From Marivirga harenae (GTDB lineage: Bacteria; Bacteroidota; Bacteroidia; Cytophagales; Cyclobacteriaceae): a DNA stretch of 64,000 nt. How positions within the stretch are numbered: the first letter of the stretch is position 1; each line of letters opens with the position of its first letter. The stretch is from contig NZ_CP130565.1 in NCBI RefSeq assembly GCF_030534335.1, positions 2,501,501 to 2,565,500 on the forward strand. Reading direction: 5' to 3'. Positions 14,616 through 23,638 of the stretch are shown here, one piece after another. Under the pieces are notes generated by a model that did not search any database, was not told the origin of the DNA, and saw only the letters and a list, made by a program, of their open reading frames with translations. A program made the translations under genes and the position numbers.

Positions 14616-14650
14616 AATAACTTCCTGAATGAAAATTTCAGGAAGTTATT
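14616..14650. terminator. Bidirectional terminator hairpin
   Basis: AATAACTTCCTGAA at 14616-14629 and its exact reverse complement at 14637-14650 form a perfect 14-bp stem with a 7-nt loop. It sits between the M28 peptidase gene and the convergent lipoprotein pair and overlaps the stop codon of the latter, so it can serve both directions. Confidence 0.8.
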
Positions 14651-15002
14651 CTATTTCAAATTCAAATACCCATCTATAATAATCTTTCAAATTGTTGTCC
14701 CCAATACTGCCTCTTTCTATAATCTCCACAGTTTGAGACCCCTTGAAACCTTCTTTAGCCCTGAATCTAAATAGCAATTCTTTTTCTATTAATTTTATCT
14801 CACTGATTTGATATTTTTTAGCTTGTTTTCTAATACTACGCCCACCTTCTGCAGGAAAAGTACTACCAAAGCTATATTCATATAATTCAGTTCCCTCAAG
14901 TGTGACTTTAATAACTTCAGTTTCAATATCGCTGTCTATACTTTCTTCTTTACAACTAATAAAAAATAAGGAAAGGGAGACAATCAATAATTTAAGTTTC
15001 AT
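14646..15002 (-). CDS. Small lipoprotein, second of a tandem paralogous pair (118 aa)
   Basis: Begins with a lipoprotein signal (MKLKLLIVSLSLFFISCKEE, lipobox FISC), so Cys17 should be lipidated. The mature part holds KVTLEGTELYEY, EGG and AKEGFKGSQTVEI, matched closely in the next gene. I do not recognise a named family; the short beta-rich mature domain suggests a small sandwich or barrel. It follows its paralogue by 19 bp on the same strand, so the two are surely co-transcribed. Function unknown. Confidence 0.7.
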   Translation of the reverse strand: MKLKLLIVSLSLFFISCKEESIDSDIETEVIKVTLEGTELYEYSFGSTFPAEGGRSIRKQAKKYQISEIKLIEKELLFRFRAKEGFKGSQTVEIIERGSIGDNNLKDYYRWVFEFEIE

Positions 15003-15021: not shown

Positions 15022-15363
15022 CTATTTCACTCTGATTTCAAATACCCATTTTTGGTAATCCGTGAAATTTCCGTCTCCAGGACTACCAAACAATACAATT
15101 TCTACTGTTTCAGTTCCTTTAAATCCTTCTTTAGCTTGATAGTGGTATGTTGCCCAATTGATTTCACTTTTCTGAAAATTTTGTGCTTGTTTCCGTATGT
15201 CATAACCACCTTCAACCGGTCGAGTATCGCCAAATTTATACTCATATAATTCTGTTCCATCTAATGTTACTTTGATAACGTCAGTATCTAAATCGCTTTT
15301 CATTTCTTCTTTACAACTAAGGAAAGATAACAAAATCATCGAAAATATTATGCAGTTTTTCAT
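15022..15363 (-). CDS. Small lipoprotein, first of a tandem paralogous pair (113 aa)
   Basis: A paralogue of the following gene, sharing KVTLDGTELYEYKFG, EGGYDIRKQAQ and AKEGFKG in the same order. ATG 15363 is preferred over the upstream ATG at 15378 because it gives a clean lipoprotein signal (MKNCIIFSMILLSFLSCKEE, lipobox SFLSC). Pair members appear to be an old duplication, since only about half of the residues match by eye. No family is recognised. The upstream region is shared with the divergent rhodanese operon and contains an 18-bp palindrome. Confidence 0.7.
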   Translation of the reverse strand: MKNCIIFSMILLSFLSCKEEMKSDLDTDVIKVTLDGTELYEYKFGDTRPVEGGYDIRKQAQNFQKSEINWATYHYQAKEGFKGTETVEIVLFGSPGDGNFTDYQKWVFEIRVK

Positions 15364-15418
15364 ATAAATAGGACACATTTCCGCATCAAAAGGTTGCTTA
15401 CTACCCTTATGACAATAA

Positions 15419-17124: not shown

Positions 17125-18060
17125 GTGAGCAGTTATTCAATTAAAGATTTAGAACACTTATCAGGCATTAAAGCCCATACGCTAAGAATATGGGAGCAGC
17201 GCTATAATTTCATAGAGCCGAAAAGAACCGATACCAACATTCGTTACTACAGTGATGATGATTTAAAATTGGTTCTAAACATTAGCACACTCAAAGAGAA
17301 CGGGTACAAAATATCCAAAATTGCTAAAATGAATGAAGAGGAGCTCAGTCAGGAGGTCCTCAAGATTGCAGAAACCAATCTGAGATTTCCAGATCAAATT
17401 AACTCACTTACTCTGAGTATGATTGATATGGATGAAGATAGGTTTGAAAGTATCTTAAACAATAATATTTTGAAGTATGGTTTCGAAAGGACTATGCTGA
17501 ATATCATCTATCCTTTTTTGGCTAAAATAGGAATGCTTTGGCAAACGGGTAGTATTCTACCAGCCCAGGAGCATTTCATTTCTAACCTAATTCGTCAAAA
17601 AATGACAGTGGCTATTGATGGACAATATGTTACAGAACGAGAGTCAAAAGGGAAATGGTTATTATATTTGCCTGAGGGTGAATTACATGAACTTTCGTTA
17701 ATGTTTGCCGCTTTCTTATTAAGAGCTAGAAAGTTTAAAGTGATCTATTTAGGGCAGAATTTACCTAAAGCAGATTTATACTCTGTTAAGGAAATACACG
17801 AACCAGATTATGTTCTGACAATTTGTACGGCAGCACCGAAAAAATCGGAAGTGCAGGAATATATAGATGAAGTTGCAGATTTGTTTAGTAGTGCCACCAT
17901 GTTTGTAGGGGGATTTCAAGTAATAGGACAAGATATTAAGAGAAAGAAGAATGTTGAGTTTATTATGAAAATGGAGGATCTAATTGATTTTATCAACGAG
18001 AAAGATATCGAGCTTAGTCCGAAAAGACCTGAAGGACAGAAGAATATGAGGTACGAATAA
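17125..18060 (+). CDS. MerR-type regulator with cobalamin-binding domain (CarH/LitR-like photoreceptor)
   Basis: A three-part regulator of 311 aa. Residues 1-70 form a MerR winged helix (SIKDLEHLSGIKAHTLRIWEQRY). Residues about 95-165 are the helical cap with W139-x9-E149-H150, the Wx9EH signature of CarH proteins. The B12-binding Rossmann domain follows, with GELHEL around His188 in the place of the lower axial ligand (GExHxx). In CarH/LitR proteins adenosylcobalamin senses light, and light releases the repressor from DNA. Unusually for this genome the GTG start has a strong Shine-Dalgarno (AAGGAGAG, 17110-17117). It sits upstream of the ECF sigma and carotenoid genes, its likely targets. 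Light response is inferred from motifs and context. Confidence 0.85.
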   Translation: MSSYSIKDLEHLSGIKAHTLRIWEQRYNFIEPKRTDTNIRYYSDDDLKLVLNISTLKENGYKISKIAKMNEEELSQEVLKIAETNLRFPDQINSLTLSMIDMDEDRFESILNNNILKYGFERTMLNIIYPFLAKIGMLWQTGSILPAQEHFISNLIRQKMTVAIDGQYVTERESKGKWLLYLPEGELHELSLMFAAFLLRARKFKVIYLGQNLPKADLYSVKEIHEPDYVLTICTAAPKKSEVQEYIDEVADLFSSATMFVGGFQVIGQDIKRKKNVEFIMKMEDLIDFINEKDIELSPKRPEGQKNMRYE

Positions 18061-18084
18061 AATTCTTATTGACTTATCATTTAC

Positions 18085-18111
18085 AAGCTACCCTATGGGG
18101 TGGCTTTTTTT
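18085..18111 (+). terminator. Rho-independent terminator after the MerR/B12 regulator
   Basis: AAGCTACCC at 18085-18093 pairs with GGGTGGCTT at 18098-18106 (one T-G pair) around a 4-nt loop, followed by a T run. It separates the regulator transcript from the carotenoid operon. Confidence 0.75.
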
Positions 18112-18264
18112 ATGCTCAATATTTAATACCTGTGCGTGATATTATTTTCTTAAACACTCATTTGAATCACTGTTTTATTTATTATTGATTTATTTTAGAT
18201 ATTTGTTCAACATAAGTTAAACTTTTATAATTTATGTCGATACATTTAAAATATGCCTTTAAGG

Positions 18265-18294
18265 GTATTTGGAGCGTATTTGAATCTATTTTTG
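18265..18294. promoter_or_regulatory. Direct repeats of GTATTTG with 11-bp period
   Basis: GTATTTG occurs at 18265-18271 and 18276-18282, exactly 11 bp apart, and the related TATTTTTG follows at 18287-18294. The last also matches the -7 consensus TAnnTTTG. Direct repeats at 11-bp steps are the known binding layout of CarH tetramers. It lies within the 345-bp non-coding stretch between the regulator and the ECF sigma gene. Confidence 0.35.
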
Positions 18295-18312
18295 ATATAA
18301 CCGGTATCAAAA
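18290..18312. promoter_or_regulatory. Palindrome TTTTGATA-N7-TATCAAAA
   Basis: TTTTGATA at 18290-18297 and TATCAAAA at 18305-18312 are perfect 8-bp inverted arms around TAACCGG. The size and symmetry suit a dimeric regulator site. It directly precedes the GTTTAA/TTAAAC array of the carotenoid promoter; the bound factor is unknown. Confidence 0.4.
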
Positions 18313-18313
18313 T

Positions 18314-18395
18314 GTTTAATGTAGAAGAAAAAAAATTAAACAAAAGATTTGGTTATTGTTTAATTAAAGTATAGATTTGTTAAACAACATTAAAC
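18314..18395. promoter_or_regulatory. Phased GTTTAA/TTAAAC operator array over the carotenoid promoter
   Basis: Hexamers GTTTAA at 18314 and 18358 and TTAAAC at 18336, 18380 and 18390 (start positions). The first four step by exactly 22 bp and alternate in orientation; the fifth is 10 bp after the fourth. They lie before the -33 box, between the boxes, and at the predicted start of transcription, so a bound repressor would cover the promoter. The adjacent CarH-like protein is the natural candidate. TTAAAC also occurs at 17093 before the regulator's own gene. Confidence 0.5.
18348..18379 (+). promoter_or_regulatory. Predicted promoter of the ECF sigma-crt operon
   Basis: TTTG at 18348-18351, 20 nt, then TAGATTTG at 18372-18379: an exact match to the Bacteroidota consensus TTTG-N19-21-TAnnTTTG. 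Transcription should begin near 18385, about 20 nt before the sigma factor ATG. It is the best promoter found in the window. Confidence 0.7.
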
Positions 18396-18405
18396 ACTGA
18401 CAATC

Positions 18406-18909
18406 ATGACAGCATTAGAATTTGGTTACGCGATTAACAACATGACAAAATCCATGAAACCGTTCGCTTTAAGGTTGACGAAAGACATGGAGCAGGCAAA
18501 TGATTTAATTCAGGAAACTGTATTAAAAGCATTTTCAAACAGAGAAAAGTTTTCTGAAGGGACTAACTTGAAAGCATGGTTGTTTACTATAATGAAAAAT
18601 ACATTCATTACTAATTACCAGAGAATGGTGAGAAGAAAGACTTTCATTGATACTACCGAAAATTTGCACTTCATTAATTCCACTGAAAATATTGCTCAAA
18701 ATTCGGCCTATGGCTCATTTGCCATGGCAGACATCGTAAGCCAAATTTCAAAATTAGATGATGTTTATAAAGATCCATTCATGATGCATTTTAGAGGTTT
18801 TAAATATCATGAAATAGCAGAGAAATTAGAAATTCCGATAGGAACTGTGAAAAATAGAATCCATATTGCCAGAAAAGAGTTAAAAGATGCATTAAAGATT
18901 TATGCATAA
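18406..18909 (+). CDS. ECF-type RNA polymerase sigma factor (167 aa)
   Basis: A sigma-70 family member with only regions 2 and 4. Region 2 includes DLIQETVLKAFSNREKF and LKAWLFTIMKNTFI; region 4 ends with a helix-turn-helix in YHEIAEKLEIPIGTVKNRIHIARKEL. No anti-sigma factor gene is adjacent, so control is probably transcriptional, by the regulator next door. It is 12 bp upstream of crtI, which resembles light-induced carotenoid systems such as Myxococcus CarQ in logic, although the gene order differs. Target promoters are not known. Confidence 0.9.
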   Translation: MTALEFGYAINNMTKSMKPFALRLTKDMEQANDLIQETVLKAFSNREKFSEGTNLKAWLFTIMKNTFITNYQRMVRRKTFIDTTENLHFINSTENIAQNSAYGSFAMADIVSQISKLDDVYKDPFMMHFRGFKYHEIAEKLEIPIGTVKNRIHIARKELKDALKIYA

Positions 18910-18921
18910 TTTGAAAAGTTA

Positions 18922-20403
18922 ATGGCAAATAAAAAGATAGTAGTAATTGGTTCTGGTTTTGCAGGTTTATCTACTGCAACTTACCTTGCCAATGAGGGCT
19001 GTGATGTAACAGTCTTAGAAAAAAATAAGGATTTAGGAGGGAGAGCCCGTCAGTTCAAAGCTGAGGGCTTTACTTTTGATATGGGTCCAAGCTGGTATTG
19101 GATGCCCGATGTATTTGAAAAATATTTTGAGACTTTTGGAAAGAAAGTATCAGATTATTACGATCTCCAAAGACTAGACCCATCTTATCATGTAGTTTTC
19201 GGAAAAGATGATATTTTAAAAGTGCCTGCCAATATGCAGGAATTCAAAAATATGCTGGAAACACTCGAGGAGGGAAGTGGTGCACAACTCGATAGATTCC
19301 TGAAACAAGCTGCCTATAAGTATGAAAAAGGAATAAATGACTTGGTCTATAAACCGGGACGCTCCTTGACCGAATTTATGAGTCTGAAGTTACTTCTTGA
19401 TATGCTGAGAATGGATATTTTTTCTTCCATATATAGCCATGTGAGAAAATTCTTCAAAAACGATAGGATTATCCGTTTAATGGAATTCCCAATTTTGTTT
19501 TTGGGTGCTCTTCCTGAAAATACCCCAGCATTATACAGTTTAATGAATTATGCTGACATCAGTCTTGGAACTTGGTATCCAAAGGGCGGAATGCATAAGA
19601 TTGTGGAAGGAATGGTGAAGTTGGCTGAAGAAAAGGGAGTTACTTTCATTACTGATCAAGAGGTTATATCTGTAGATTGTGAAGGAAAGTTGGCCAAAAG
19701 AGTTGTAACCAAAAATGCCACTTATGAGGCAGATGTTGTCGTTTCTTCTGCTGACTATGAACATACTGATCAATCCATACTTCCAGAGAATTTCAGGAAT
19801 TACGATACTAAGTATTGGGAAAATAGAACCATGGCTCCTTCGTCTTTGATATTCTATTTGGGAGTTGATAAGAAAGTTGCAGGATTAGTCCATCATAATT
19901 TATTCTTCGATCATGATTTTGGTCCTCACGCAAAGGAAATTTATGAAACACCAGGGTGGCCTGAAGCTCCATTATTTTATGTTAGTGCACCTTCCAAAAC
20001 GGACCATACCGTTGCACCTGAAGGCAAGGAAAATTTATTTATTTTAATGCCTGTGGCTCCCGGTCTTGAAGATAATGAGGAAATTAGAGACAAGTATTAT
20101 GAGCTTATTATGGATAGAATGGAGAAAATATTAGGAGAAGACATTAAGAAATATGTAACTTATAAGCGTAGTTATGCTCATAATGATTTTATCGATGATT
20201 ATCATTCATTTAAAGGGAATGCATATGGCTTAGCGAATACTTTAAAGCAAACGGCAATCTTGAAGCCTGCTTTAAAAAATAAAAAGCTGAAAAACTTTTA
20301 TTATGCAGGTCAGTTAACTGTGCCTGGTCCAGGAGTTCCACCGTCTTTGATTTCTGGTCAAGTTGTAGGAAAAGAGGTGATGAAAGATTTAAATAAGATG
20401 TAA
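18922..20403 (+). CDS. crtI: Phytoene desaturase CrtI-type carotenoid oxidoreductase (493 aa)
   Basis: Introduces double bonds into phytoene on the way to lycopene. The N-terminal FAD-binding motif (VVIGSGFAGLSTATYLANEG) and the following GGRARQF are present, and the C-terminus carries the family motif YYAGQLTVPGPGVPPSLISGQ. The length is typical for bacterial CrtI. It starts 12 bp after the sigma factor and ends 4 bp before crtB. A role as a related desaturase (CrtD) is less likely because it is next to crtB. Confidence 0.92.
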   Translation: MANKKIVVIGSGFAGLSTATYLANEGCDVTVLEKNKDLGGRARQFKAEGFTFDMGPSWYWMPDVFEKYFETFGKKVSDYYDLQRLDPSYHVVFGKDDILKVPANMQEFKNMLETLEEGSGAQLDRFLKQAAYKYEKGINDLVYKPGRSLTEFMSLKLLLDMLRMDIFSSIYSHVRKFFKNDRIIRLMEFPILFLGALPENTPALYSLMNYADISLGTWYPKGGMHKIVEGMVKLAEEKGVTFITDQEVISVDCEGKLAKRVVTKNATYEADVVVSSADYEHTDQSILPENFRNYDTKYWENRTMAPSSLIFYLGVDKKVAGLVHHNLFFDHDFGPHAKEIYETPGWPEAPLFYVSAPSKTDHTVAPEGKENLFILMPVAPGLEDNEEIRDKYYELIMDRMEKILGEDIKKYVTYKRSYAHNDFIDDYHSFKGNAYGLANTLKQTAILKPALKNKKLKNFYYAGQLTVPGPGVPPSLISGQVVGKEVMKDLNKM

Positions 20404-20407
20404 AGGC

Positions 20408-21250
20408 ATGAATGCTAAAGAACTATTTAATCAAACTACTTTTGAATGTAGTAAGCTGATTACTAACCGTTACAGCACATCCTTTAGTTTAGGTATTAAA
20501 AGCCTTGATAAAAAATTTCATTATCCCATTTATGCTATCTATGGTTTTGTGAGATATGCAGATGAAATTGTAGATACATTCCATGAAAAAGACAAAGCTG
20601 CTCTATTACAAGATTTTAAGAAGCAAACTTATGAAGCGATTGAGCAGCAAATCAGCTTAAACCCTGTTTTACATTGCTTTCAAATGGTAGTGAATGAGTA
20701 TCAAATTGACCATTTACTTATTGAGGCTTTTTTGCATAGCATGGAGATGGATTTGCAAGATATTGATTATCAGCAATCTTCATATGAGGAATATATTTAC
20801 GGCTCTGCTGAAGTGGTCGGTTTGATGTGTTTAAAAATCTTCTGCGATGGAAATGAAGAGGAATATCAACAGTTATTACCACCGGCCAAAAGTTTAGGGT
20901 CTGCTTTCCAAAAGGTAAATTTCTTGAGAGATATTAAGTCTGATTATTATGAAAGAGGGAGGGTGTACTTTCCTGGAGTAGATTTCAACGACTTTTCGGT
21001 TTCCCATAAGGAAAAAATTGAAGATGATATTCAAAAAGATTTCGACCACGCTTATGAGGGTATCGTAAAACTTCCTAGAGGCGCAAGATGGGGCGTGTAT
21101 TTAGCGTATACTTATTATTTGAAGTTATTTGATAAAATTAAGCGTTTTCCACCTAACAAAATATTGGAAGAAAGAGTTAGAGTTCCTGATTCCAAAAAAC
21201 TATTTCTGTTGTTAGGTAGTTATCTTAAACATCAGTTCAATACGCTTTAA
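20408..21250 (+). CDS. crtB: Phytoene synthase CrtB (280 aa)
   Basis: Joins two geranylgeranyl diphosphates into phytoene. The first aspartate-rich motif is YADEIVDTF, the second is near NFLRDIKSDY; the tyrosine-rich helix YYERGRVYFP follows. The start RYSTSFSLG is typical of the squalene/phytoene synthase family. It is 4 bp after crtI and 10 bp before ispH, within one operon. Confidence 0.92.
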   Translation: MNAKELFNQTTFECSKLITNRYSTSFSLGIKSLDKKFHYPIYAIYGFVRYADEIVDTFHEKDKAALLQDFKKQTYEAIEQQISLNPVLHCFQMVVNEYQIDHLLIEAFLHSMEMDLQDIDYQQSSYEEYIYGSAEVVGLMCLKIFCDGNEEEYQQLLPPAKSLGSAFQKVNFLRDIKSDYYERGRVYFPGVDFNDFSVSHKEKIEDDIQKDFDHAYEGIVKLPRGARWGVYLAYTYYLKLFDKIKRFPPNKILEERVRVPDSKKLFLLLGSYLKHQFNTL

Positions 21251-21260
21251 ACAATAGCTC

Positions 21261-22106
21261 ATGATGAACCTAAACGTTAAAATCGATAATAGCTCAGGAT
21301 TCTGTTTTGGTGTAGTTTATGCCATCGAAATGGCTGAAGATATGCTCGATGAGCAGGGTTACCTATATTGCTTGGGCGATATCGTGCATAATGATGAAGA
21401 AGTAAAAAGACTGGAAGCTAAGGGTCTTAAAATTATAGATCGTGAAGCTTTAAAAGATTTACACGGTGAAAAGGTGTTGATTAGAGCTCATGGTGAACCT
21501 CCATCGACTTATAAATTAGCTATTGAAAATAACCTGACTTTGGTGGATGCTTCATGTCCGGTTGTTTTGAAATTGCAAAATAGGATAAAAAACTCATTTG
21601 ATAAAAAGGAGCAAATTTATATTTACGGAAAGCATGGCCATGCGGAGGTAGAAGGTCTTTTGGGTCAAACAAACCAAGAGGCTGTTGTTTTTCAAGATAT
21701 AAATGAATTAGATATTGACAGCCTGCCAAGGGAAATGACTTTATACAGTCAAACCACTAAAAGCACAGACAATTTTTACAAAATTAAAGAAACTTTAACC
21801 GAAGCGGGTATCAGTGTAAATGCTAATGATACGATTTGCCGTCAGGTTTCTAATAGAGATAAAGAATTAAGATCTTTTGCTGGAGAATTTGATAAAGTTG
21901 TCTTTGTTTCGGGAACCAAATCATCCAACGGAAAGGTTTTGTATAATGTGTGTAAGGACAAAAATCCTAACACTTATTTCATCTCCAATATTACTGAATT
22001 AGATAAGGACTGGTTTTCAGAGAATGATTCAGTTGGTATTTGCGGAGCTACTTCCACTCCTATGTGGTTAATGGAACAAGTTCGAGATGAATTATCAAAA
22101 TTATAA
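21261..22106 (+). CDS. ispH: 4-hydroxy-3-methylbut-2-enyl diphosphate reductase IspH
   Basis: The last enzyme of the MEP pathway, making IPP and DMAPP. Three cluster-binding cysteines are seen in SGFCFGVV, VDASCPVV and DTICRQVSNRDKEL, and the closing CGATSTP loop is present. The length is 281 aa (ATG 21261 or 21264). Its position between crtB and crtZ means that the supply of isoprenoid units may rise with carotenoid synthesis. dxs, the first enzyme of the same pathway, lies about 9 kb away on the other strand. Confidence 0.93.
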   Translation: MMNLNVKIDNSSGFCFGVVYAIEMAEDMLDEQGYLYCLGDIVHNDEEVKRLEAKGLKIIDREALKDLHGEKVLIRAHGEPPSTYKLAIENNLTLVDASCPVVLKLQNRIKNSFDKKEQIYIYGKHGHAEVEGLLGQTNQEAVVFQDINELDIDSLPREMTLYSQTTKSTDNFYKIKETLTEAGISVNANDTICRQVSNRDKELRSFAGEFDKVVFVSGTKSSNGKVLYNVCKDKNPNTYFISNITELDKDWFSENDSVGICGATSTPMWLMEQVRDELSKL

Positions 22107-22129: not shown

Positions 22130-22609
22130 ATGTTAGAAGTATTAACTATTTTATTTTATGCCTTCTTGGTAGTAGGAACTTTCTTCTTTATGGAAGCAGT
22201 AGCTTGGTTTACTCATAAATATATCATGCACGGATTTTTGTGGACGTGGCATAAGTCTCACCATAAAGTTCATAATCATAAATTGGAAAGAAACGATTTG
22301 TTTGCGGTCGTTTTTAGCGTCCCTTCAGCAGGGCTCATTATGGCAGGAATTGAATTTCCACAGCTAAGATGGCTCTTATTTGTAGGAATTGGAGTAGCTT
22401 GTTATGGTGTTTTTTATGTCTTATTTCATGATATTTTGGTCCACAGAAGAGTTAAACTAAAATTTAAAGCTGAAAATTCATATCTTAAAAGAATGATGCG
22501 AGCCCATTACATCCATCATGAAGTGCACACGAAGGAAGGAGCCGAAGCTTTTGGCTTTCTCTACGCCCCTAAAAAATATGAGCCTAAAGAACAGAAAAGT
22601 AAGGCTTGA
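22130..22609 (+). CDS. crtZ: Beta-carotene hydroxylase CrtZ (159 aa)
   Basis: A membrane di-iron hydroxylase that adds 3-hydroxyl groups to beta-ionone rings, giving zeaxanthin. The histidine motifs are HKYIMHG, HKSHHKVH, HDILVHRR and HYIHHEVH, the full set of this family; about four membrane helices are visible. It closes the carotenoid operon. A lycopene cyclase is needed before it but none is seen in this window. Confidence 0.9.
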   Translation: MLEVLTILFYAFLVVGTFFFMEAVAWFTHKYIMHGFLWTWHKSHHKVHNHKLERNDLFAVVFSVPSAGLIMAGIEFPQLRWLLFVGIGVACYGVFYVLFHDILVHRRVKLKFKAENSYLKRMMRAHYIHHEVHTKEGAEAFGFLYAPKKYEPKEQKSKA

Positions 22610-22984: not shown

Positions 22985-23638
22985 CTAATCCAACATCTCC
23001 TCCTTCAACTTCTCCCAATCATCATTTTTATATTTTTTATAGCAGTGCTGGTGATAGCCATCTAGTTTTATTAATGAATCAAATAATTTCACTTTTTCTG
23101 TCTTATTTAAATTACCGACTAAATGCTGACTGACTTCGTTGGCTCTAGTCATTACAATGAAACTAGCAGTTTTCCCAGTCTCAGTAAGTTTCAAATCTTT
23201 ACTTCTTTTGTCTTTTTCGTTGGGCCTCTCCTCTAAAATTCCATTGCTCACTAGTCGTTTTATATTTTCAAAAATTGTAGTTTTTTCTTGTAGTGAATGA
23301 TTAGCCACTTCAGATTTACTGCAGCCTTCGTGGCTCATCACATATAATGCAATTCCAAATTCAGTTAAATTGTGTATAGGTTGATTTGCAAATGCCTTCT
23401 TCTCCCAAATTTGTGTAAAACTCATCATTCTACCCCAAACCCACCCGATGTATTCATCTGGAGACTTTGCCGGAAATGGAAATGGCATTTTATCTCTCAT
23501 TTGAGTTAATTCGTCTTTGTTATTGTCCCTATTTACATTACTTGATAGGGTTTTTCCGAACTCACTGAAATCACCATTCGGATTCTTTTTGAGGAATTCC
23601 GTATACATTTCCAACAGTTTAATTCCATTCTCTAACAT
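22985..23638 (-). CDS. MarR-like winged-helix transcriptional regulator (217 aa)
   Basis: A winged-helix protein with an N-terminal extension of about 65 residues before the MarR-like core: LTEFGIALYVMSHEGCSKSEVANHSLQEKTT as the helix-turn-helix, then GILEERPNEKDKRSKDLKLTETG as the wing. It is divergent from a TonB-dependent receptor, 93 bp from its start, and may control it. The phrase at residues 55-62 (FPAKSPDEY) and the following GRMM are not part of the common core. The ligand is unknown. Confidence 0.8.
   Translation of the reverse strand: MLENGIKLLEMYTEFLKKNPNGDFSEFGKTLSSNVNRDNNKDELTQMRDKMPFPFPAKSPDEYIGWVWGRMMSFTQIWEKKAFANQPIHNLTEFGIALYVMSHEGCSKSEVANHSLQEKTTIFENIKRLVSNGILEERPNEKDKRSKDLKLTETGKTASFIVMTRANEVSQHLVGNLNKTEKVKLFDSLIKLDGYHQHCYKKYKNDDWEKLKEEMLD

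Follow-up and report, generated by a model that had tools for sequence, protein, structure and literature searches.

A predicted operator of a CarH-like MerR/B12 repressor over the carotenoid promoter of Marivirga harenae

Positions 18312-18387 of the 64-kb stretch of Marivirga harenae DNA analyzed here (the window) are likely to be the operator of the CarH-like MerR/B12 protein encoded next to them, predicted to be a repressor that is released by light and governs a wider light regulon. The site itself, the rule that governs its spacing, its overlap with a promoter, its dependence on the presence of the MerR/B12 gene, its recurrence upstream of rhodopsin genes and the conservation of the photoreceptor residues of the protein were all computed from genome sequences.

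Results

The genome that contains the window consists of a single 4.37-Mb contig and encodes one MerR/B12 protein of this kind (at E 0.001), by which its nearest named relatives are species of Marivirga. On the plus strand, the merR/B12 gene is followed, after a gap of 345 bp, by the genes for an ECF sigma factor, CrtI/CrtD, CrtB, IspH and a CrtZ-like protein [Table 1], the ECF sigma factor gene being the first of a probable operon. Pfam and NCBIfam searches gave no match for the product of the last gene (22130..22609), which we take to be CrtZ-like from its histidine motifs. The merR/B12 gene thus adjoins carotenoid genes, the linkage expected of carH, and its product presumably controls them.

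Table 1 Features of the merR/B12-carotenoid locus (window coordinates)
Feature	Position	Strand	Remarks
merR/B12 gene, CarH-like regulator	17125..18060	+	311 aa; MerR HTH, B12-binding helical bundle, Rossmann B12 domain
Distal operator unit (predicted), ATGTTTAA-N16-TTAAACAA	18312..18343	.	15/16 letters; arms 18312-18319 and 18336-18343; kept in Marivirga
-33 element, TTTG	18348..18351	+	between distal and proximal units
Proximal operator unit (predicted), TTGTTTAA-N16-TTAAACAA	18356..18387	.	16/16 letters; arms 18356-18363 and 18380-18387; covers -7 box
-7 element, TAGATTTG	18372..18379	+	abuts last arm
Fifth TTAAAC	18390..18395	+	exact in only 4/10 Marivirga genomes
ECF sigma factor	18406..18909	+	Pfam Sigma70_r2 and Sigma70_r4_2
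Phytoene desaturase / 3,4-desaturase (CrtI/CrtD type)	18922..20403	+	NCBIfam CrtID, 777 bits (cut-off 640)
Phytoene synthase (CrtB type)	20408..21250	+	Pfam SQS_PSY, 9e-47
ispH (4-hydroxy-3-methylbut-2-enyl diphosphate reductase)	21261..22106	+	NCBIfam, 366 bits (cut-off 276)
Carotene hydroxylase, crtZ-like, probable	22130..22609	+	syntenic in relatives

The intergenic region between the merR/B12 and ECF genes (18061-18405; 345 bp, 76% A+T) contains GTTTAA at 18314 and 18358, and TTAAAC at 18336, 18380 and 18390. These hexamers had been pointed out in an earlier note on this DNA, and their positions were verified both against the sequence and by script; the two promoter boxes that the note had read among them, TTTG (18348-18351) and TAGATTTG (18372-18379), likewise lie where it had placed them. 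Seven copies of GTTTAA or TTAAAC occur in the region, versus a mean of 0.84 in dinucleotide shuffles, and the chain of four hexamers at 22-bp steps was reached in none of 20,000 shuffles. Steps of 10 to 40 bp were all considered, and no other chain of at least three hexamers was found in the 64-kb window. A chance array in A+T-rich DNA is ruled out by these shuffle counts.

Conservation of the spacing among relatives, which the note had proposed as a check, was then established in ten genomes of the genus Marivirga, the window's included. The four arms retain 22-24 of their 24 letters in this set while the rest of the intergenic region diverges, and the steps between them measure 22/22/22 bp in eight genomes, 22/21/22 in one and 23/22/22 in one. 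The two inner arms of M. atlantica are altered alike, from TTAAAC to TTCAAC and from GTTTAA to GTTGAA. The fifth hexamer (18390), which had been counted with the others, did not turn out to be a conserved part of the array [Table 1] and probably lies outside the operator. As for the operator-like character attributed to the hexamers, they do behave as an operator, but conservation extends beyond the six bases, to the words TTGTTTAA and TTAAACAA.

The operator unit is the inverted repeat TTGTTTAA-N16/17-TTAAACAA, a word derived from units matching at least 15 of its 16 letters with those close to crtI omitted; the window has two such units, 44 bp apart, and the type represented by the proximal one was found again in most of the sampled Bacteroidota genomes that encode the MerR/B12 protein (MerR+ genomes). 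To describe its geometry, we used the 74 loci in which merR lies beside an ECF gene, 62 of them nonredundant. The distance from GTTTAA to TTAAAC in these 62 loci was 22 bp in 47 pairs and 23 bp in 30 pairs, with no pair at 14-21 or 24-31 bp, and a 22- or 23-bp pair was present in 54 of them, compared to a shuffle mean of 0.09. Steps between units in the merR-ECF loci were of 33 bp (11 pairs), 22 bp (8), 21 bp (3) and 35 bp (2). Across 116 nonredundant promoters, unit-to-unit distances peaked at 43-45 bp (16) and 54-57 bp (27) over scattered single values, and a second unit at one of these distances was found in 36 of 58 ECF promoters, 5 of 18 rhodopsin promoters and 0 of 40 crt promoters from the family labeled f7. 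The element is thus an inverted-repeat unit, often doubled in steps of about 11 bp and single in f7 crt promoters; given its absence as a doubled form from all 40 of the latter, the four-arm array is not general.

Similar results were obtained upstream of crtI in 74 MerR+ genomes, where inverted units scoring at least 14 of 16 occurred with N16 in 56 regions and with N17 in 22, the median over spacings being 4. Direct 8-mers reached the threshold in 10 of the 74 regions at 11 bp and in nine at 22 bp. The only strong direct-repeat signal, at 21 bp (36/74) and 20 bp (26/74), would be best explained by the TTTG of the -7 box abutting an arm, and three tandem TnnACA repeats were found in none of the 74 regions.

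Primary-sigma promoters of Bacteroidota consist of TTTG and TAnnTTTG about 19 bp apart, a consensus to which the window promoter conforms with TTTG at 18348, TAGATTTG at 18372 and a gap of 20 bp. A TAnnTTTG box was located near 81 of 145 distinct strong units (89 boxes in all). Compared to a baseline in which spacers and flanks were shuffled and the arms kept, the box was strongly enriched at +16 of the unit, immediately preceding the right arm, which is also its place in the window (29 versus a shuffle mean of 0.22), and at +5 (25 versus 1.35). These two registers, 11 bp apart, are firm. The register at -5 (17 versus a mean of 8.1 and a maximum of 16 in shuffles) is not, and was set aside as consisting mostly of letters of the arm itself. 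An operator lying over the -7 box suits repression.

Whether the site accompanies the MerR/B12 gene or the ECF gene was assessed in a sample of 392 Bacteroidota genomes, of which 89 encode the MerR/B12 protein and 100 crtI; 264 gave an ECF match at E <=1e-20, although many of these matches are probably to other ECF factors. Up to 3 kb upstream of crtI were taken for 98 of the 100 genomes (G087 and G358 were left out) and 97 regions were scored, 74 from MerR+ and 23 from MerR- genomes, the 703 bp available from G398 being too short. A unit scoring at least 14 of 16 was present in 67 of the 74 MerR+ regions and in one of the 23 MerR- regions, that of G284 (Fisher 9.5e-15, a value that, like the other Fisher value reported here, overstates independence since the genomes are mutually related, many of those of f7 belonging to one genus). 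At a threshold of 15, the counts were 47 of 74 and 0 of 23. The mean G+C contents of the two sets of regions were 0.38 (MerR+) and 0.40 (MerR-). Of the seven MerR+ genomes devoid of a site upstream of crtI, three (G213, G181 and G401) have units scoring 15-16 before an ECF gene elsewhere in the genome, two (G068 and G276) have exact 6+6 units before the ECF gene adjoining merR, and the remaining two, G201 and G161, have best scores of 13 and 11, respectively.

Promoters at which the two genes are separated were informative in this respect. Nine of 11 promoters of unlinked ECF genes (ten of 30 ECF loci with merR elsewhere in the genome, plus G064 from the crtI set) scored at least 14, the other two being those of G201 (13) and G161 (11); several of these unlinked ECFs are only about 50% identical and lack an adjoining crtI. 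Among the same 30 ECF loci, none of the seven promoters from MerR-less genomes reached 14 (scores 11-13), and the element is thus not found wherever the ECF is, regardless of MerR. G145 and G185 carry merR beside crtI rather than beside an ECF gene. In genomes of family f7, no ECF match was obtained at E 1e-20, and the unit is found close upstream of crtI, or else upstream of merR; a weak ECF-like match occurs in four f7 regions, on the opposite strand and further upstream. Within f7, all 40 scored MerR+ genomes reached 14 and both MerR- genomes stayed below it. The unit is also found upstream of merR itself (L169, L178, L182; several f7 genomes). Autoregulation of merR in the window was considered and dropped, the best score upstream of that gene being only 12. 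No unit with one mismatch or less was found in the 16 loci in which merR lies away from both ECF and crt genes, several of which end at a contig end. The site follows the MerR gene, not the ECF gene, and its presence both at unlinked ECF promoters and in f7 genomes without this ECF makes the MerR/B12 protein its likely binder.

A single unit proved a poor tool for finding a regulon genome-wide. In the M. harenae genome, units with at most one mismatch in 6+6 letters numbered 44 versus 95 for a backward control, those with at most two mismatches in 8+8 letters 16 versus 15, and a further count gave 141 versus 188. Since these counts exceed the control little or not at all, the evidence rests on the array and its conservation, and further targets were sought from conserved or orthologous sites instead.

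To this end, the 250 bp upstream of rhodopsin genes were scored for the unit. A score of at least 14 was reached in 14 of 15 MerR+ and in none of 10 MerR- sampled genomes (Fisher 3.4e-6), a contrast less clean than that at crtI in that the MerR- genomes come from families outside the window's class and their upstream regions average 0.36 G+C versus 0.25. Four of six further Marivirga rhodopsin promoters also reached 14, bringing the total to 18 of 21; three of the ten Marivirga genomes gave no rhodopsin match. The signal peaked at N16, at which 16 of the 21 MerR+ promoters scored at least 14, compared to a median over spacings of 1 and next best values of 6 and 5. A perfect unit precedes the rhodopsin genes of the Marivirga genomes G001 and G002, that of G001 being followed by a Brp/Blh-type gene (Pfam), and in four f7 genomes the four-arm layout appears, by eye, to be repeated before rhodopsin. 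The rhodopsin gene of M. harenae itself (G000:C1:1692538) is preceded at -49 by a unit scoring 14, a score reached by 4 of 100 shuffles; the sites of G007 and G009, taken singly, are within chance (12 and 13 of 100 shuffles). Two operator-like units, matching 14 and 13 of 16 letters, were noted in the segment before the M. harenae gene (G000:C1:1692400-1692540; L355:2400-2540).

Operator-like units also recur near pterin genes in Marivirga. By raw count, nine of the ten genomes have a unit scoring 13-15 that begins 472-476 bp upstream of folE, just ahead of queD where the genes were inspected, and six of the ten have another at +745 to +968, before an SDR gene where inspected; G004 has neither. 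The units at this queD-folE-SDR cluster (L371-L379) suggest that pterin genes may be under light control.

Other occurrences were recorded individually. In three Marivirga genomes (L350, L351 and L352), a perfect unit lies between a small, presumably DUF983 gene, judging from its translation, and a gene for a fasciclin-domain protein (Pfam in L350). In M. harenae, a perfect unit lies upstream of an ABC-F-like gene, so read by eye (L362:1690; G000:C1:4283689), and a one-mismatch unit that may be due to chance separates a LysR gene from a divergent operon (L340:1501; G000:C1:2314730), the second gene of which resembles, by eye, that of NDH subunit 5. A site at G000:C1:4041191, also found in G001-G004, was discarded, as it falls within a long ORF in the relatives and its conservation may be coding.

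The product of the merR/B12 gene matched Pfam MerR_1 (5e-18) and B12-binding_2 (2e-12), and B12-binding at 3e-6, below the cut-off of that family; its sequence match in the PDB was CarH (5c8d, 3e-20). The best match by E-value of its AlphaFold model (mean pLDDT 86) was DNA-bound CarH (5c8e, 9e-16). The full-length superposition on CarH was loose (TM about 0.55, rmsd 10-15 Å), the B12 domain alone fitting better (about 0.8 by target length). The protein has the N-terminal MerR HTH, the C-terminal B12 domain and the fold of CarH, in an arrangement that fits loosely. It scored 102 bits with the NCBIfam CarH equivalog, the cut-off of which is 400, and its residues 1-73 matched NCBIfam MlrA at 38 bits, also below cut-off.

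The earlier note's reading of a CarH-like protein encoded next door was borne out, in that the key photoreceptor residues of CarH are kept. W131, E141 and H177 (CarH numbering) are conserved in 141 of 141 proteins, the window's included, and H142 in 138; all four have been called key for AdoCbl binding in CarH (PMC11796333), and the window protein retains this entire AdoCbl pocket, with H177 as the lower ligand. His132, the upper ligand of CarH after photolysis, is replaced by Q in the window protein, and at least 139 of the 141 proteins have Q, L, V, M, I or S there; a CarH H132A variant was described as unable to monomerise (PMC11796333). The linker between the DNA-binding and B12 domains is 53 residues long in 137 of the 141 proteins versus 42 in CarH, and the GGH of the CarH wing is changed to T, N and I in 135, 141 and 139 of them, respectively. 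A longer linker and a new wing would fit a changed DNA geometry.

Discussion

The predicted operator and the protein encoded beside it have much in common with the CarH/LitR systems of Thermus thermophilus, Bacillus megaterium and Myxococcus xanthus. Shared features are a MerR HTH joined to an AdoCbl-type B12 domain, the W-x9-EH and ExH residues, linkage to carotenoid genes, an operator lying over the promoter, a phasing of about 11 bp and a half-site, here TAAACA, that fits the TnnACA of CarH. The CarH operators of Thermus and Bacillus are reported to consist of three or four tandem 11-bp direct repeats of nnnnTnnACAn and are described as unlike the usual palindromes of MerR proteins (PMC9304148, PMC8156234). 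Here, in contrast, inverted half-sites are spaced 22/23 bp apart and form units that frequently recur at intervals of about 44/55 bp, the linker and wing differ, His132 is missing in nearly all members, and the apparent targets extend to the ECF gene, rhodopsin and pterin genes. The CarH architecture invoked in the earlier note thus holds for the phasing (22/23 bp within the unit, mostly 22/33 bp between units, about 44/55 bp from unit to unit) and not for the tandem arrangement. The MerR/B12 protein probably works like CarH, yet its sites are not CarH operators as published; it would be a variant.

Other relatives provide partial parallels. CarA of M. xanthus is a related protein for which a site of two inverted repeats, the second overlapping the -35 region, was proposed (PMC9304148); CarA differs in being B12-independent and countered by CarS, and its inverted repeats are degenerate in relatives, the segment being read there as 11-bp direct repeats. 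MlrA/BluR of Escherichia coli, an HTH relative of the MerR/B12 protein, recognizes the shorter pseudo-palindrome AAAGTTGTACA(12N)TGCACAATTTT (PMC3509220), whose outer TTGT...ACAA recurs in the unit described here, although the span from TTGT to ACAA is 26 bp compared to 32 here and the known MlrA target is csgD. CtMerR of Chloracidobacterium thermophilum (PDB 8JBS) is a MerR/B12 photoreceptor with a DNA-binding domain unlike that of CarH, for which its authors suggest an alternative DNA site and whose B12 domain passes from tetramer to monomer in light (PMC11796333); its B12 domain is about 17% identical to our AlphaFold model. The carotenoid cluster of the flavobacterium Nonlabens likewise starts with a gene that has been called MerR-family (PMC11855829). 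Among the titles and abstracts listed from the open-licence literature, none reports a Bacteroidota CarH operator, which is weak evidence of novelty.

On the mechanism that we propose, the two inverted-repeat units would present four half-sites at 22-bp steps, in alternating orientation and on about one face of the helix, across the -33/-7 promoter of the ECF sigma-crtI-crtB-ispH operon. In the dark, the MerR/B12 protein would bind adenosylcobalamin, oligomerise and occupy the half-sites, thereby blocking RNA polymerase; in light, breakage of the Co-C bond would cause the oligomer to collapse and free the promoter. Through the same unit, the protein may control further light-related genes, including rhodopsin and, in Marivirga, pterin genes.

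Of the alternatives, the one that survives best, although unlikely, is that the MerR/B12 protein binds the array but senses B12 levels or redox rather than light, or acts as an activator. The part played by light is itself a deduction, and the histidine found at CarH position 132 is not conserved. Many MerR-family proteins activate transcription by remodelling long promoter spacers, as this alternative would have it. The proximal unit, however, extends over the -7 box and, probably, the start site, not the -33/-7 spacer alone, and rhodopsin and carotenoid genes are among the apparent targets. This alternative is further countered by the retention of W131, E141, H142 and H177, key to AdoCbl binding, and by CtMerR, whose light state is not bis-His and whose B12 domain nonetheless goes from tetramer to monomer (PMC11796333).

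Less probable still is binding of the palindrome by some other regulator, whose gene is unlinked to the MerR/B12 gene but occurs in the same genomes. Co-occurrence is no proof of binding, and an inverted repeat with a 22-bp dyad departs from the published CarH layout; against this, the site tracks MerR in several families and does so at promoters away from merR as well, the unit precedes merR itself in some genomes, and the TAAACA half-site fits the published TnnACA.

We attach very little weight to the idea that the ECF sigma factor regulates its own promoter through the array, suggested by the position of the array directly upstream of the ECF gene in those Cytophagales and Chitinophagales loci that are arranged in this way: the ECF factor as binder is largely ruled out by the f7, unlinked-ECF and MerR-less ECF promoters (0/7 for the last), the unit precedes crtI or merR in f7 genomes with no ECF at E 1e-20 and precedes rhodopsin genes too, and inverted repeats are ill-suited to a sigma factor. 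Just as improbable is a conventional CarH operator with 11-bp direct repeats in tandem, for which the 11-bp phasing, the TnnACA-like half-site and the CarH-type protein would speak, as the arms alternate in orientation, none of the 74 MerR+ regions contains three TnnACA repeats in tandem, and the direct signal at 20-21 bp is probably due to the abutting -7 box.

Beyond the window, we incline, with less assurance than for the operator itself, to the view that Bacteroidota possess a CarH-like B12 photoreceptor of their own type, set apart by its extended linker, its new wing and its palindromic operator of 22-bp dyad, and that it acts as master switch for carotenoids (directly or via the ECF factor), rhodopsin pumps and pterin genes. 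Expression of rhodopsin genes rises in light in the flavobacterium Nonlabens sp. YIK11 (PMC4831467). If true, the master-switch reading would supply the missing photoreceptor for light-induced rhodopsin expression in marine flavobacteria, for which the present analysis names a candidate protein and a mutable site. For several families within a single phylum, the unit described here provides a DNA code by which a predicted light-sensing repressor can be put to the test. It also suggests that inverted repeats, instead of direct ones, can partner a protein of CarH type, alongside an 11-residue-longer linker and a changed wing. A second type of operator for green-light optogenetics may follow.

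Two further features of the gene neighborhood were noted. Two adjacent small lipoprotein-like genes on the minus strand of the window (14646-15002 and 15022-15378) read as tandem paralogues, the second giving no match in Pfam. Convergent to the crt operon lies a MarR-family gene (22985-23638, minus strand), found in the same place in L013, L014 and L015. A MarR-family gene resembling that of the window stands just before crtI in MerR-less loci of families f6 (L222, L225, L227, L230, L232 and L233), f4 (L221) and f5 (L223), where it is perhaps a different carotenoid regulator.
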